NCBI GenBank assembly: GCA_001303665.1
Contig: LJUF01000015.1
Location: forward strand, 8,064-41,894
Direction of reading: 5' to 3'
DNA from: Phycisphaerae bacterium SM23_33
GTDB taxonomy: Bacteria; Planctomycetota; Phycisphaerae; SM23-33
DNA length: 33,831 nt
Shown here: one piece after another, positions 5,299-13,119 of the stretch
Layout of the letters: every line of letters starts with the position of its first letter
Numbering within the stretch: the first letter of the stretch is position 1
Position numbers and translations under genes: made by a program
Notes under the pieces: generated by a model
Databases searched by the model: none
Seen by the model: the letters and a program-made list of their open reading frames with translations, nothing else
Told to the model about the DNA's origin: nothing

Positions 5299-6294
5299 TC
5301 AGAACTGCCGCAGGAAGCGGACGTCGTTCTCGAACAGCAGGCGGATATCGGGGATGTTGTACTTCCGCATCAGCATCCGCTCGATGCCCAGCCCGAAGGC
5401 CCAGCCCGTGTACCTTTCGGAGTCGTACCCGACGGCCTCCAGGACGTTGGGATCGACCATGCCGCAGCCGCCCAGCTCCAGCCAGGCCGTCGAGCCGTCC
5501 GCGTAATGGAAGAGCATGTCCACTTCCGCCGAGGGCTCGGTGAAGGGGAAGAAGCTGGGGCGAAAGCGCGTCGCCACCTCCGGGCCGAAGTAGGCCTTGC
5601 AGAACTGGTCGACGTCGCTTTTCAAGTCGGCCATGGTCACGCCCTCGTCGACGTACAGGCCCTCGAGCTGGTGGAACATGTAGCTGTGGGTGGCATCCAC
5701 GGTGTCGGGGCGGTACACCCGCCCCGGGCTGATCACGCGCACGGGGGGCGGCTGCGATTCCATCACCCGGATCTGGACGGTCGAGGTCTGGCTGCGAAGC
5801 ATGACCGAAGGGGTGATGTAGAAATTCGCGAGTTCATCGCGGGCCAGGTGATCCGGCGGGATGTTCAGCGCCTCGAAGTTGTGGCGCTCATCCTCGACCT
5901 CCGGGCCGTAGGCGACGGAGAACCCCATCCGAGCGAAGATCTCGGTGATCTCCTCGATGGTCTGGGTGATGACGTGCCGGTGGCCGATCCGCAGCCCCGC
6001 TCCGGGCAAGGTGACGTCGACGGCCAGCCTGCGGCTTTCCTCCCCGCCGCCCAGCTCGGCCTTGCGCCGCTCATAGGCGGCCGTGAGGGTGTTCTTCACC
6101 TCATTGGCCAGCCGGCCAAAGTCGCGGCGCTGCTCCGGGGAAAGCTCCTTCAGCAGCGTCATCGCGGCCCGGACCGCGCCCTTCATGCCCAGGTAGCGAA
6201 TCCGCCACTTCTCCAGCGTGTCGGCGTCGACGACGAGGTGCAGCGCCTCCATCGCCTCCTGGCGAAGCCTCTCAAGCCGGACGTCTGATGCCAC
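5299..6294 (-). CDS. pheS: Phenylalanine--tRNA ligase subunit alpha
   Basis: 331 aa, GTG start; class II aaRS motifs (RVISPGRVYRPDTVDATHSYMFHQLEGLYVDEGV; FRPSFFPFTEPSAEVDM; GWAFGLGIERMLM). Confidence 0.95.
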   Translation of the reverse strand: MASDVRLERLRQEAMEALHLVVDADTLEKWRIRYLGMKGAVRAAMTLLKELSPEQRRDFGRLANEVKNTLTAAYERRKAELGGGEESRRLAVDVTLPGAGLRIGHRHVITQTIEEITEIFARMGFSVAYGPEVEDERHNFEALNIPPDHLARDELANFYITPSVMLRSQTSTVQIRVMESQPPPVRVISPGRVYRPDTVDATHSYMFHQLEGLYVDEGVTMADLKSDVDQFCKAYFGPEVATRFRPSFFPFTEPSAEVDMLFHYADGSTAWLELGGCGMVDPNVLEAVGYDSERYTGWAFGLGIERMLMRKYNIPDIRLLFENDVRFLRQF

Positions 6295-6329
6295 CTCTGT
6301 CTCCGACCCCGCCGGCCGGGCCCCGCCAG

Positions 6330-6968
6330 CTACCCCTTGGGGTCGTCTTGGCCCTTGGACTTTTTCCTGGCAGGCCTCTTCGGGGCGGGCTTGCTGGCCC
6401 TGGGCTTGGCGGCGGTCTTCTTCCTGGCGGGCTTGGCCTTTTCACGGGCCTTGGCCGCTGCCGGGGCCTTCTTGGCTGCTCGTCTTCGCGCGGGCTTGGG
6501 TTCCTCCTTCGCCGCGGGCTCCTTGGCGACCTCGACGGGCTCGGCTTGGGCCTGGGCGGCTTTCGGTCTGGGCTCGGCCGCAACCTTTTGCGCGGCGGGC
6601 TCTACCGGCTCGGCACGCTTCTGCCCGGCCGCCACGGCGACCAAGTCGTCGAAGGCCGCCGGGTCGGACACAGCCAAGTCGGCCAGGACCTTCCGATTGA
6701 CGGAAACGTGATTCTGCGACAATCCGTGCATGAAGCGGCTGTAGTTCAACCCTCGCCGTCGGCAGGCGGCCGAAATCCGGGTGATCCAAAGCTGGCGGAA
6801 CTCGCGCTTCTTGAGCTTGCGGCCGACGATGGCGTGCTGGCCGGCACGCAGCAAGGCCTCCCGGGCCACGCGGTACCGGCGAGAGGCGGCGCCGATATAG
6901 CCCCGGGCAGCCCTCAGAATCTTCTTGTGCTTGCGGGCGCGGGCGGCGCCCTTTCTTGCTCGTGGCAT
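6330..6968 (-). CDS. rplT: 50S ribosomal protein L20 with long low-complexity C-terminal extension
   Basis: MPRARKGAARARKHKKILRAARGYIGAASRRYRVAREALLRAGQHA...RKLKKREFRQLWITRI is L20; about 95 extra Lys/Ala/Pro-rich residues follow the conserved core. Confidence 0.95.
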   Translation of the reverse strand: MPRARKGAARARKHKKILRAARGYIGAASRRYRVAREALLRAGQHAIVGRKLKKREFRQLWITRISAACRRRGLNYSRFMHGLSQNHVSVNRKVLADLAVSDPAAFDDLVAVAAGQKRAEPVEPAAQKVAAEPRPKAAQAQAEPVEVAKEPAAKEEPKPARRRAAKKAPAAAKAREKAKPARKKTAAKPRASKPAPKRPARKKSKGQDDPKG

Positions 6969-7050
6969 CACAAGCTCCTCAAGGGCCGGTGAACGATCCC
7001 GCCTGAGGAAGTCCGTTCGCAGTCCCAGTCGGCCTCACGAATACGTATTC

Positions 7051-8279: not shown

Positions 8280-10274
8280 CTAGGTTTTGCAAAACGCCGC
8301 CCGGGCGCCTCGGGAATTTACCTCTTCCCGCAGCGCCTGCACGGCCTCAGCCAGCGGGAAAGAGCCCACCTCGCCGACACCGCGGCGGCGGACGGATACG
8401 CTCCGCGCCCCGGCCTCGCGCGCCCCGACAATAAGCAGGTAAGGCACCTTCTGGAGGGTCCAGCGGCGGATCTTGGCCGCAATCTTGTCCGGTGTGTCGT
8501 CGTTTTCGACGCGCAGGCCGGCCGATCCGGCCGACCCCGCGACCTCGGCGGCATAGTCGTTGAACTTCTCGCTGACCGGCAGCACCGCCAACTGCACCGG
8601 CGAAAGCCACAGGGGAAACGCCCCGCCGAAGTGCTCGATCAGGATGCCGATAAACCGCTCCAGCGAGCCGAACGGCGCCCGATGAATCATCACCGGGCGG
8701 TGCACGGCGTTATCGGCGCCGACGTATTCCAGGCCGAACCGCTCGGGGATGTTGTAGTCCACCTGGATCGTCCCAAGCTGCCACTCTCGCCCGAGGCAGT
8801 CCTTGACGATGAAGTCGATCTTGGGGCCGTAGAAAGCGGCCTCATCCGGCTCCTCGGTGAAGTTCATTCCCAGCGCCGACACCACGGAACGGATGTTGGC
8901 CTCGGCCAGGTCCCAGTTCCTGGGCTCGCCGACGTACTTGGAGGAGTCCGGGCCGCGCAGCCCGATCCGCACGCGGTAGTCCCTCAGCTCCAGCGTCCCC
9001 AGCACCAACTCGACCAGCCCGACGCAGGACTCGAGTTCCGACTCAAGCTGCTGGGGCGTGCAGAAGATGTGGGCGTCGTCGCAGCAGTACCCGCGGACCC
9101 GGGTCAGGCCGGTCAGCTCGCCGGATTGCTCAAAGCGATAGACGGTGCCGAATTCCGCCAGCCGCAGCGGCAGCTCGCGGTAGCTGCGCTGGGTGGACTT
9201 GTATATCTGCACGTGGTGCGGGCAGTTCATGGGCTTCAGCAGGTAGCCCTGCTCCTGCCCCTCCGCCGAGGTGCCCGTCAGGATCGGCGGGAACTGCGAT
9301 TCCTTGTAGTAAGGGTAGTGGCCGCTGGTGCGGTACAGGCCCAGCTTGCCGATGTGCGGGGTCACCACCATCTGGTAGCCGCGCTTGACCAGCTCTCCGC
9401 GCAGCCAGGATTCCAGTTCGTGGCGGACGATCGCGCCTCGCGGCAGCCACAAAGGCAGCCCCGGCCCGACCTCGTCGGACAGCAGAAACAGCCCCAGCTG
9501 CCTGCCCAGGACGCGGTGATCGCGCTTCCGGGCCTCCTCGATCCGCTGGAGGTGCTCGTCCAGCTGCTTCTTGTCGAAAAAGGCCACGCCGTACACCCGC
9601 GTGAGCATCTGCCGGGCTTCGTCGCCGCGCCAGTAGGCCCCGGCCACGGACAGCAGCTTGAACACCTTGACCTTACCGGTGGACGGCAGGTGCGGGCCCC
9701 GGCACAGGTCCAGGAAGTCGCCCTGCTCGTACAGGCTCACGGTGGAGAGGCCCTCCTGCCGGGCCCGGTCGTCGATCATCTCCACCTTGTACTGCTGGCC
9801 CAGCTCGGCAAAACGCTTCCTGGCCTGCTCAACGGGCAGTTCCGTGCGGCGGATGGGAATATCCTCGGCGACGATCTTCCGCATTTCCTGCTCGACCTTC
9901 TCCAAGTCTTCCGCCCCCAAGGGCTTGGGAAGATCGAAATCGTAGTAGAAGCCGTACTGGAAATCGTCGGTCAGCGGGGGGCCGATGGTGTACTGAACTT
10001 CCCGGCCGTACAGTCGGCGCATCGCCTGCGCCAGCACGTGGGCCACGGTGTGGCGCAGCACCTGCAGGGACTGCTCGTCGCGGTCGGTAAGGATCCTCAG
10101 CCGGTGGGAGCCCTGGGTCAATTCCGCGGTCAGGTCGGTGGGCTGACCGTCCACCTCGGCGGCCAAGGCGGCCTGGGCCAGGCGCGGAGAGATGTCGGCC
10201 GCCACGCAAGCGGGTGTGACGGCCTTGTGGTATTTGAGGCTGCTTCCGTCGGGCAGCTCGATCAAGACGGTCAT
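8280..10274 (-). CDS. thrS: Threonine--tRNA ligase
   Basis: 664 aa; N-terminal TGS-like domain, RHTVAHVLAQAMRRLYG, LMKPMNCPHHVQIYKS-type motif, C-terminal anticodon-binding region; followed by infC. Confidence 0.97.
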   Translation of the reverse strand: MTVLIELPDGSSLKYHKAVTPACVAADISPRLAQAALAAEVDGQPTDLTAELTQGSHRLRILTDRDEQSLQVLRHTVAHVLAQAMRRLYGREVQYTIGPPLTDDFQYGFYYDFDLPKPLGAEDLEKVEQEMRKIVAEDIPIRRTELPVEQARKRFAELGQQYKVEMIDDRARQEGLSTVSLYEQGDFLDLCRGPHLPSTGKVKVFKLLSVAGAYWRGDEARQMLTRVYGVAFFDKKQLDEHLQRIEEARKRDHRVLGRQLGLFLLSDEVGPGLPLWLPRGAIVRHELESWLRGELVKRGYQMVVTPHIGKLGLYRTSGHYPYYKESQFPPILTGTSAEGQEQGYLLKPMNCPHHVQIYKSTQRSYRELPLRLAEFGTVYRFEQSGELTGLTRVRGYCCDDAHIFCTPQQLESELESCVGLVELVLGTLELRDYRVRIGLRGPDSSKYVGEPRNWDLAEANIRSVVSALGMNFTEEPDEAAFYGPKIDFIVKDCLGREWQLGTIQVDYNIPERFGLEYVGADNAVHRPVMIHRAPFGSLERFIGILIEHFGGAFPLWLSPVQLAVLPVSEKFNDYAAEVAGSAGSAGLRVENDDTPDKIAAKIRRWTLQKVPYLLIVGAREAGARSVSVRRRGVGEVGSFPLAEAVQALREEVNSRGARAAFCKT

Positions 10275-10334: not shown

Positions 10335-10456
10335 AAAAAAGCCGGTACACGAAGGTCCGGAGGACCCACGGCAAGCGCGCGCCCCGGGCTGACCCGGAGG
10401 GCCCTTAGCACGTCGTGGTGATCCTCGTCGTCTTCGGCATAGTTCGTGTACCGGCT
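10335..10456 (-). terminator. Putative transcription attenuator terminator in thrS leader
   Basis: Perfect 14-bp inverted repeat AGCCGGTACACGAA (10340-10353) / TTCGTGTACCGGCT (10443-10456). On the - strand the 3' arm TTCGTGTACCGGCT runs directly into TTTTT (10339-10335), about 60 nt before the thrS ATG. Confidence 0.65.
10405..10440 (-). CDS. Putative Thr-rich leader peptide MPKTTRITTTC
   Basis: ATG CCG AAG ACG ACG AGG ATC ACC ACG ACG TGC TAA: 5 Thr in 11 codons, located between the two arms of the attenuator inverted repeat. No clear Shine-Dalgarno. Confidence 0.55.
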   Translation of the reverse strand: MPKTTRITTTC

Positions 10457-10483: not shown

Positions 10484-10511
10484 AGGGTATCGCCCGGGGC
10501 TCGAAAGTCAA
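10484..10511 (-). promoter_or_regulatory. Putative sigma70-like promoter of thrS operon
   Basis: - strand TTGACT (10511-10506), 16-nt spacer, TACCCT (10489-10484). Confidence 0.45.
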
Positions 10512-10563: not shown

Positions 10564-13119
10564 TCATGCCCAGCGGACGAGGCCCATCTCGCGGGGATCC
10601 GGCATGGCCTGATGGCGCGGCAGGACGCGGACGGTATAGCCGGCCAGGCCGCTCTTCCTGCAAGGCATGTCCGCGGCGTACCGCACGCGCCCTTCGGTGT
10701 CGGGGTCGCCCTGCGGCTCCATTTGCACGGCCTCGCCGGTGATCAACTGGCCGTCGGGGTCCAACTGCCCGTGGTACAGTTGCACCGACACGTCGCCGGG
10801 CGAGACCTTGCCCAGCATCACCGTGGCCTCGACCCGCACCGGCCGGCCGACGCGGGAAACGCCGTCCATGTCGTCGTGAACGAACTCGATCCGCACCTGA
10901 TTGAACTGCTCGAGGAACCACCGCTTCCATTCGGCCAGGGCCTGGGCCCCGCCCATCTCATCGGCGGTCAGCTTGCGCCAGCGCTCGGAGGCCGGCAGGT
11001 AGGACTTCTCGCAGTACTCCCGGACCATTCGGTTGGTGTTGAAGCACGGGGCGAGCTTCCGCATGGCGGCCTTCATCCGCCCGATCCACTGCCGCGGCAG
11101 GCCGTCCGGGCCCCGGTTGTAGAACATCGGAACGACTTCCCTCTCCAGGAGATGGTACAGCGCCTGGCTTTCCACGGCGTTCTGGTAGTCCAGGTCCTCG
11201 TAGGTCTCGCCGGAGCCGATGGCCCAGCCCACCTCGGGGCTGTAGCCCTCGTCCCACCACCCGTCCAGGATGGAGACGTTCAGCCCGCCGTTGGCGGCGA
11301 CTTTCATGCCGCTGGTGCCGGAGGCCTCCATCGGCCGCAGCGGCGTATTCAGCCAGACGTCCGCGCCCTGAACCATGTAGCGGGTCAGGTTGATGTCGTA
11401 ATCTTCGAGGAAGACGATGTTTCTGCGGAACTCCGGACGGCGGGCGATGTGCACGATCTGACGGATGAGTTCCTTGCCGGGGTTGTCCCGCGGGTGGGCC
11501 TTTCCGGCAAAGAGGATCTGCACGGGCATCTTGGGGTCGTTCAGCAGCCGACCCAGCCGCTCGATGTCCTGCAGGATCAGGTTGGCCCGCTTGTACGTGG
11601 CGAACCTGCGCGAGAAGCCGATGGTGAGGGCTTCGGCGTCGAGGACCTCCTCGGCGGCGGCCAGCTCCGCCTGGCCGGCGCCCCTGCGGGTCAACTGCTC
11701 CCTGAGCCGCCGCCGGGCAAACGCCACCAGCCGCTCACGACGCCGCTCGTGCGTCCGCCACAGCTCGGTATCGGGGATCTGGTCGACCGCGTCCCAGACG
11801 TGGACGTCGGCGGGCTGTTCCTGCCAGTCCGGGCCAAGATACCGGTCGTACAGCCCCGCCAGGTCGTAGCTGATCCAGCTGCCGGTGTGGATGCCGTTGG
11901 TGATGTGGTCGATGGGGATTTCGTGGTCCGGCAAAGAGGGCCAGACGCCCGACCACAGCCTCCGGCTGACCTGCCCGTGCAGCCTGCTGACGCCGTTGCG
12001 GCAACTGCTCAGCCGCAGGGCCATCACCGTCAGGGACATCGGCTCCTCGGCGTTGTTGGGGTCCTGGCGACCCAGGCCGAGGAACTCGTTCCGCGACAGC
12101 CCGAGTTTTTCCCAGAAATCCTTGAAGTACTTCTCAATCAGCCAGGCCTCGAAGGCGTCGTTGCCGGCCGGGACCGGCGTGTGGGGCGTGAACACATTCG
12201 AGGCGATGACCGCCTCGCGGGCGGCCTGGAACGAAACTCCCCGCTCGGCCATGAGCACGCGGATCCGCTCCAGGCTCAGAAAGGCCGAGTGGCCCTCGTT
12301 CATGTGAAAGACTTCCGGCTGAATGCCCAGCGCGGCCAGCGCCCGCACGCCGCCGATGCCGAGGATAATCTCCTGGCGGATCCGCATCTCCTGGTCGCCG
12401 CCGTAAAGCTGGCCGGTAATCTGCCGGTCCTCGGGGGAGTTCTCCGGCACGTTGGTGTCCAGCAGATACAGGTTCACGCGGCCGACGTGGACCACCCAAA
12501 TGCGAACCTTGACCGGCCGGCCGGGGAATGCCACCTCCGCCGTCAGCGGCTGGCCGTCCCGGGTGACCGGCTCGACCGGCATGTTGTAAAAGTCATTGCG
12601 AGGGAACAGTTCGAGCTGCCAGCCATCGGCGTTGAGCCTTTGCCCGAAATACCCTTGCTGATACAGCAGCCCGATCCCCGCCAGGGGCACGCCCAGGTCG
12701 GAGGCGCTCTTGAGATGATCGCCGGCCAGCACGCCCAGCCCGCCGGAGTACATGGGGATACACTCGGTCAGGCCGAATTCGGCGCAGAAGTAACCGATTC
12801 TCGGCTTGTCCGCCTCGCCGTAGTTCTGGTTCCACCACGACCCCCTGGCCAGGTAGTCCTGCTGCTCGCCCAGGGCCCGGCGGAACTGGGTGAGAAAACC
12901 GGAATCCCTGCTGACCGCCTCCAGCCGTTCCTGGTCGATCTGGCCGAGCATGGCCACGGGGTTGTGACCCGTCTGGTCCCAGCCCTTAGGGTCCAGGCGG
13001 CGGAACACCTCGCGGATCTCGCCCCGCCAGGACCATCGAAGGTTGTAGGCCAACTCGACCAGACCGGTCAGGTTCTCGGGCAAGGCCGGCTCGACTCTGA
13101 ACGAGCGAAGCGGTCTCAT
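10564..13119 (-). CDS. glgP: Alpha-glucan family phosphorylase
   Basis: 851 aa; [31 protein letters not shown]..., [57 protein letters not shown]. Confidence 0.93.

Follow-up and report, generated by a model that had tools for sequence, protein, structure and literature searches.

The window, a 33,831 nt stretch of contig LJUF01000015.1 from Phycisphaerae bacterium SM23_33, carries a short threonine-rich open reading frame between a phosphorylase-like gene and thrS (Table 1). The start of thrS is 60 nt past the T run at the foot of a long hairpin. On the same strand, rplT and pheS are found downstream of thrS (window positions 5302-6971, minus), and an attenuator at this site may therefore influence genes beyond thrS. 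An initial annotation of the sequence had described an attenuator here, and its arms, T6 run, leader and inner helix were all found where it had placed them, on the minus strand upstream of thrS. The leader, MPKTTRITTTC*, reads ATG CCG AAG ACG ACG AGG ATC ACC ACG ACG TGC TAA and ends at 10405; it has 11 codons before the stop, with threonine at codons 4, 5, 8, 9 and 10. As annotated, two bases separate the end of the 5′ arm from the leader ATG (10440-10438, minus) and the arms are 89 nt apart. They form a perfect 14-bp complement, and the 3′ arm runs into the T6 run.

Table 1. Features of the thrS leader region, in window coordinates
Feature	Position	Strand	Basis
thrS, threonyl-tRNA synthetase, presumed target	8280..10274	minus	Pfam tRNA-synt_2b, HGTP_anticodon, tRNA_SAD, TGS
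T6 run, foot of hairpin	10340-10335	minus	sequence
3′ terminator arm TTCGTGTACCGGCT	10353-10340	minus	sequence, fold, arm complementarity, covariation
Inner helix 3′ strand CGTGGGTCCTC	10360..10370	minus	fold; ORF pairing over relatives
GC-rich apical hairpin region 3′ of leader stop	10381..10404	minus	fold
Inner helix 5′ strand GAGGATCACCACG, inside ORF, codons 5-9	10414..10426	minus	fold; ORF pairing significant across relatives
Leader ORF MPKTTRITTTC*	10440-10405	minus	ORF call; Thr-rich frame kept in relatives
5′ terminator arm AGCCGGTACACGAA, -16 to -3 of leader ATG	10456-10443	minus	sequence, fold, arm complementarity, covariation
Promoter-like pair TTGACT (10511-10506), 16 nt spacer, TACCCT (10489-10484)	10484..10511	minus	motif scoring
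Phosphorylase-like gene, upstream side of leader	10567-13119		DUF3417 and Phosphorylase domains

By its sequence and structure, a terminator-like hairpin with a T run is present between the leader and thrS. The segment 10480-10325 folds with -72.8 kcal/mol (z -3.4; none of 200 shuffles as good), the two arms pair in this fold as had been proposed, and the element is predicted to be one long hairpin (z -3.4 to -3.9 in folding against shuffles). The complementarity of the arms was likewise reached by none of 200 shuffles of the 5′ region. Inside the outer helix, the annotated pairing of CCACG (10418-10414) with CGTGG (10370-10366) is present and is extended by GAGGAT/GTCCTC to 11 pairs in the minimum-energy fold. 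A generic terminator scan of the window allows loops of no more than 8 nt and for that reason did not report the terminator. No Rfam family matched in the window, including the Thr_leader model (gathering score) and the T-box covariance models. The promoter-like pair is weak by itself, as 16% of shuffles score equally well; most relatives have a similar pair at a comparable distance from their leader ATG. A small hairpin, GACCT-TTATC-GGGTC, lies directly 5′ of the 5′ arm at 10471-10457 (minus), near the presumed transcript start.

The element is conserved. Among the metagenome-assembled genomes compared, 21 thrS loci of the window's family and order, the window included, have a Thr-rich leader with the 5′ arm against or over the leader ATG, a locus being counted if its long-range pair of arms, with T behind it, was matched by no more than 10 of 200 shuffles. 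The end of the 5′ arm falls between -8 and +7 of the ATG, and the arm covers the ATG itself in about half of these loci. Leaders of the relatives include MRQNTTTTTC*, MFTTTTTTRC*, MTRTTTTTA* and MNTTTTTTTTC*. In an alignment of 22 thrS leaders, both sides have changed at 13 of the 14 outer-helix pairs, and covariation is 0.427 against 0.234 (sd 0.021) when shuffled and 0.08-0.14 when slid; the MAFFT alignment (A2) misplaces the 3′ part in a few rows (e.g., L022 and L027), which is expected to reduce rather than raise these pair counts. Unconstrained RNAalifold predicts the outer helix and no other. A strictly unbranched fold is found in 11 of the 21 leaders, compared with 6% of shuffles.

A covariance model built on the thrS element matched in 26 of the 38 genomes of the order at E ≤ 0.01, and every one of the 24 matches at E 4e-8 or better, on what are rough E-values, is at thrS. 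The weaker matches that were inspected look like chance. Weak model hits at L162-L167, L169-L171 and L294-L299 were set aside, since the sequence there is coding, repetitive or of low complexity. Seven other thrS loci of the window's family (L003, L004, L006, L007, L008, L010 and L013) have a short Thr leader, such as MLTNTTTNS* or MQTTRMITTTC*, at which the arm-pair detector found no long-range outer arm; these possibly represent another mechanism or decay, and such relatives weigh against the explanation given below.

The composition of the leader frame points to coding. In thrS leaders, threonine makes up 50% of residues in frame, against 5% and 3% when the other two frames are read, and all four threonine codons are in use (62 ACG, 19 ACC, 12 ACT and 12 ACA), so that the frame is enriched in codons for the amino acid handled by the downstream gene. 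In 20 of 21 leaders threonine first appears at codon 2-5, a position also expected by chance when half of the residues are threonine. Because an SD-like 4-mer is absent just 5′ of the leader start in all 22 thrS leaders, initiation at the leader remains a prediction, and this counts against the explanation given below.

With a probability of about 0.7, the thrS element is a threonine-sensing transcription attenuator made from one hairpin and opened by the ribosome itself. The 5′ strand of this long hairpin would comprise the leader's ribosome-binding region, its start codon and its Thr codons; the 3′ strand leads into a U-run. As long as the leader is free of ribosomes, the hairpin would close, and RNA polymerase would stop ahead of thrS. 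If charged tRNA-Thr became scarce, a ribosome held up at the early Thr codons would lie over some or all of the 5′ arm and would open the helix formed by the Thr codons; the terminator would then fail and thrS would be transcribed. With sufficient threonine, the ribosome would complete the 11 codons and leave, and the hairpin would form. The ribosome would thus act in place of an antiterminator. Sequence comparison establishes the pairings and their covariation, the codon content, the placement of the element relative to the start codon and the failure to detect an antiterminator; from these we infer leader translation, termination at the U-run, a response to threonine starvation, and which stall positions count. 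The annotated role as a threonine-sensing attenuator of thrS, with an arm next to or over the leader start, is in keeping with the conservation in the 21 loci.

A search of 298 genomes of the class with the thrS model gave a single strong match outside the order, upstream of asd (aspartate-semialdehyde dehydrogenase), where a leader, MTKTTKTTTI*, is accompanied by a pair of 20-nt arms that takes in the ATG. In this second Phycisphaerae family, of 26 genomes, sixteen asd loci have Thr/Lys-rich leaders (e.g., MTQTTTTKTTKQTR, MKTTRKTPATK and MRTRKTTKKMLGR) within single long terminator-like hairpins (L193 at G137:C592, L190, L263-L269, L271-L273, L275, L183, L188 and L195). Each of the 16 folds into a single hairpin without branches, in which the leader gene makes up the 5′ strand (5.5% of shuffles fold unbranched), and the asd arms covary; a few arms lie farther upstream of the ATG (L183, L195 and L275). 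A model of the asd leader gave strong matches in 14 genomes of the family. The product of Asd is a precursor of threonine, lysine and methionine, and Thr and Lys codons therefore fit a sensor at asd. In both cases, thrS and asd, the downstream gene is threonine-related. The geometry was not found at asd in the window's own family (L197, L198 and L201), nor at the ilvB loci examined in the window's order.

A detector of the geometry, run over 1.95 Mb with both strands counted, picked out the leader in the window together with further thrS and asd leaders; its remaining matches were dispersed palindromic repeats and some three chance hits. Other synthetase and amino-acid genes were sampled through the family searches, and pheS upstream regions were screened in passing. 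The dispersed repeats are long palindromes (e.g., TTAGCAGGGATGCAGGGGATACA) present near thrS at L004, L007, L032; L056, L062, and they resemble the arm geometry but have no leader to go with it.

Long hairpins can also serve as RNA-processing or protein-binding sites, and E. coli ThrRS binds the leader of its own mRNA. The E. coli-type thrS operator has a tRNA-Thr-like element beside the thrS ribosome-binding site, to which ThrRS binds; the element described here ends 60 nt ahead of the thrS start. An analogous autoregulatory or processing function for the hairpin, with no termination, is nevertheless highly improbable, as it has to be set against the T-rich tract 3′ of the 3′ arm, the in-frame Thr-rich ORF with varied third bases, the recurrence at asd with Lys codons added, and the absence of an Rfam match. 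An attenuator opened by the ribosome is preferred.

Comparisons of pairing bear on how such an attenuator would be opened. In the 21 thrS leaders, pairing of the ORF with the segment that precedes the 3′ arm is stronger than with shuffled versions of it (combined z -8.0), in line with the annotated inner helix built with Thr codons, and the asd ORF also pairs inward (z -5.0). An antiterminator, in which the segment before the 3′ arm would pair with that arm, was not detectable in the 21 thrS leaders (combined z -1.2 against shuffles) or in the 16 asd leaders (z +1.95), as the initial annotation had anticipated for thrS. The positive control consisted of nine classical-looking thrS leaders from other Phycisphaerae families (L313, L314, L315, L319, L320, L118, L121, L122 and L081). 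These share the Thr-run ORF and a terminator before thrS, but the terminator is compact and 29-44 nt past the stop, and here the test does pick up an antiterminator (z -4.9) but no pairing between the start region and the 3′ arm (z +0.8); all combined z values overstate significance because relatives with shared ancestry are treated as independent.

A classical attenuator whose antiterminator was missed would have the segment freed by a ribosome on the Thr codons pair with the 3′ arm and block termination. Pairings between a local segment and the 3′ arm do occur in single sequences (L027, L029 and L116), of a kind that GC-rich RNA readily gives; given the lack of signal at both thrS and asd and its detection in classical-looking leaders of the same class, this alternative is unlikely. 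Opening of the single hairpin by the ribosome itself is favored.

The effect of a ribosome was modelled by masking positions -14 to +15 around the P site and folding the remainder, with the stability contributed by the outer helix as output. The mean over the 21 thrS leaders is 13.8 kcal/mol on ribosome-free RNA and drops to 0.2 when a ribosome is initiating; having the first Thr codon in the A site gives 2.6, a stall at the last Thr codon 9.5, and a ribosome that has reached the stop 9.9. These stabilities (2.6 compared with 9.9) suggest that a stall at the first Thr codon would weaken or remove the outer helix and that a ribosome at the stop for the most part would not. In the window itself the values are 14.5 free, 0.0 initiating, 6.4 with a Thr4 stall, 12.6 at the last Thr codon and 14.4 at the stop. 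Modelled occlusion is thus complete at initiation. At the first Thr codon it is nearly complete in most of the relatives and partial in the window, and at late Thr codons it is weak.

The annotated occlusion of the arm by the ribosome is supported in part. An initiating ribosome would cover the arm completely, and one that reaches the stop would release it, as had been proposed; in the window, given the -14 edge, a stall at Thr4 hides only 6 of the 14 arm bases and one at Thr5 only 3, which leaves 8 or 11 outer pairs possible, respectively. A stall at Thr8-Thr9 had been expected to block the second helix. It would do so, but at Thr8-10 only the inner helix is broken and 13-14 of the 14 outer pairs are kept; read-through there would therefore need kinetic or steric effects. 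Whether late stalls suffice would depend on folding speed, polymerase pausing and a ribosome in the loop, matters beyond static folding, and this is the weakest step both of the initial annotation and of the model given here.

As only the initiating ribosome fully removes the modelled outer helix, the element might instead sense occupancy: initiation on the leader, rather than charging of tRNA-Thr, would decide, and read-through would track translation capacity or growth rate. Such a sensor would leave the Thr codons at thrS and the Thr/Lys codons at asd unexplained and is improbable. Sensing of threonine by stalling near the leader start is the reading retained.

Textbook amino-acid attenuation requires alternating hairpins. 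As with the classical leader-peptide attenuators (trp, thr and his operons; proteobacterial pheST), the thrS element has a short ORF rich in the regulatory codon and a predicted intrinsic terminator ahead of a gene that deals with that amino acid, and read-through is expected on starvation. In the classical systems antiterminator and terminator alternate; here the leader gene lies inside the 5′ strand of the terminator. Amino-acid-sensing leaders usually follow the alternating design, with the terminator >20 bp past the leader gene (PMC4824070); here it is not a separate downstream unit. The element is predicted to work like an occlusion attenuator and would fall outside the classical alternating-hairpin family, since the antiterminator that defines that family was looked for and not found. 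The geometry had been termed unusual; it does differ from the classical one, but it is not a one-off, being a trait of the order that is found again at asd in another family.

In E. coli pyrBI, UTP is sensed via polymerase pausing and coupling, the terminator is inside a 135-bp leader gene and there is no run of regulatory codons. The two systems would share a ribosome on the leader ORF that keeps the terminator open, with no need for an antiterminator; in pyrBI the terminator is obstructed by the leader ribosome through polymerase-ribosome coupling (PMC4824070). At the macrolide-responsive msrDL, a ribosome on the leader ORF directly obstructs the intrinsic terminator (PMC10314930), as would be the case, at least in part, at thrS. 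However, msrDL senses a drug and the stall is at the stop codon; here an amino acid would be sensed and the effective stall should be near the start. T-box riboswitches also control synthetase genes by tRNA charging via a terminator, but sensing at the thrS element would be through the ORF.

To our knowledge, based on the open-access literature searched, no amino-acid attenuator is known whose leader gene itself supplies the 5′ strand of the terminator. It is reasonably likely that there is a class of amino-acid attenuators whose single terminator hairpin has the entire leader gene for its 5′ strand and which have no antiterminator other than the ribosome, with members at thrS in one order and at asd in another Phycisphaerae family. 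In the asd family, thrS has classical-looking leaders wherever a leader was seen, and three genomes (G137, G127 and G172) carry both designs. No prior description of thrS, asd or Planctomycetota leader peptides was found in the open-access literature. Leader-peptide attenuation was known only from Proteobacteria and Actinobacteria until a 2010 survey, which added Firmicutes (PMC2965389). The elements described here would extend leader-peptide control of the amino-acid type to the Planctomycetota. If the proposed mechanism is true, a single hairpin and a single ribosome are enough for a minimal, easily tested switch, and the presence of both designs in sister families and in single genomes allows conversion between attenuator types to be asked about.
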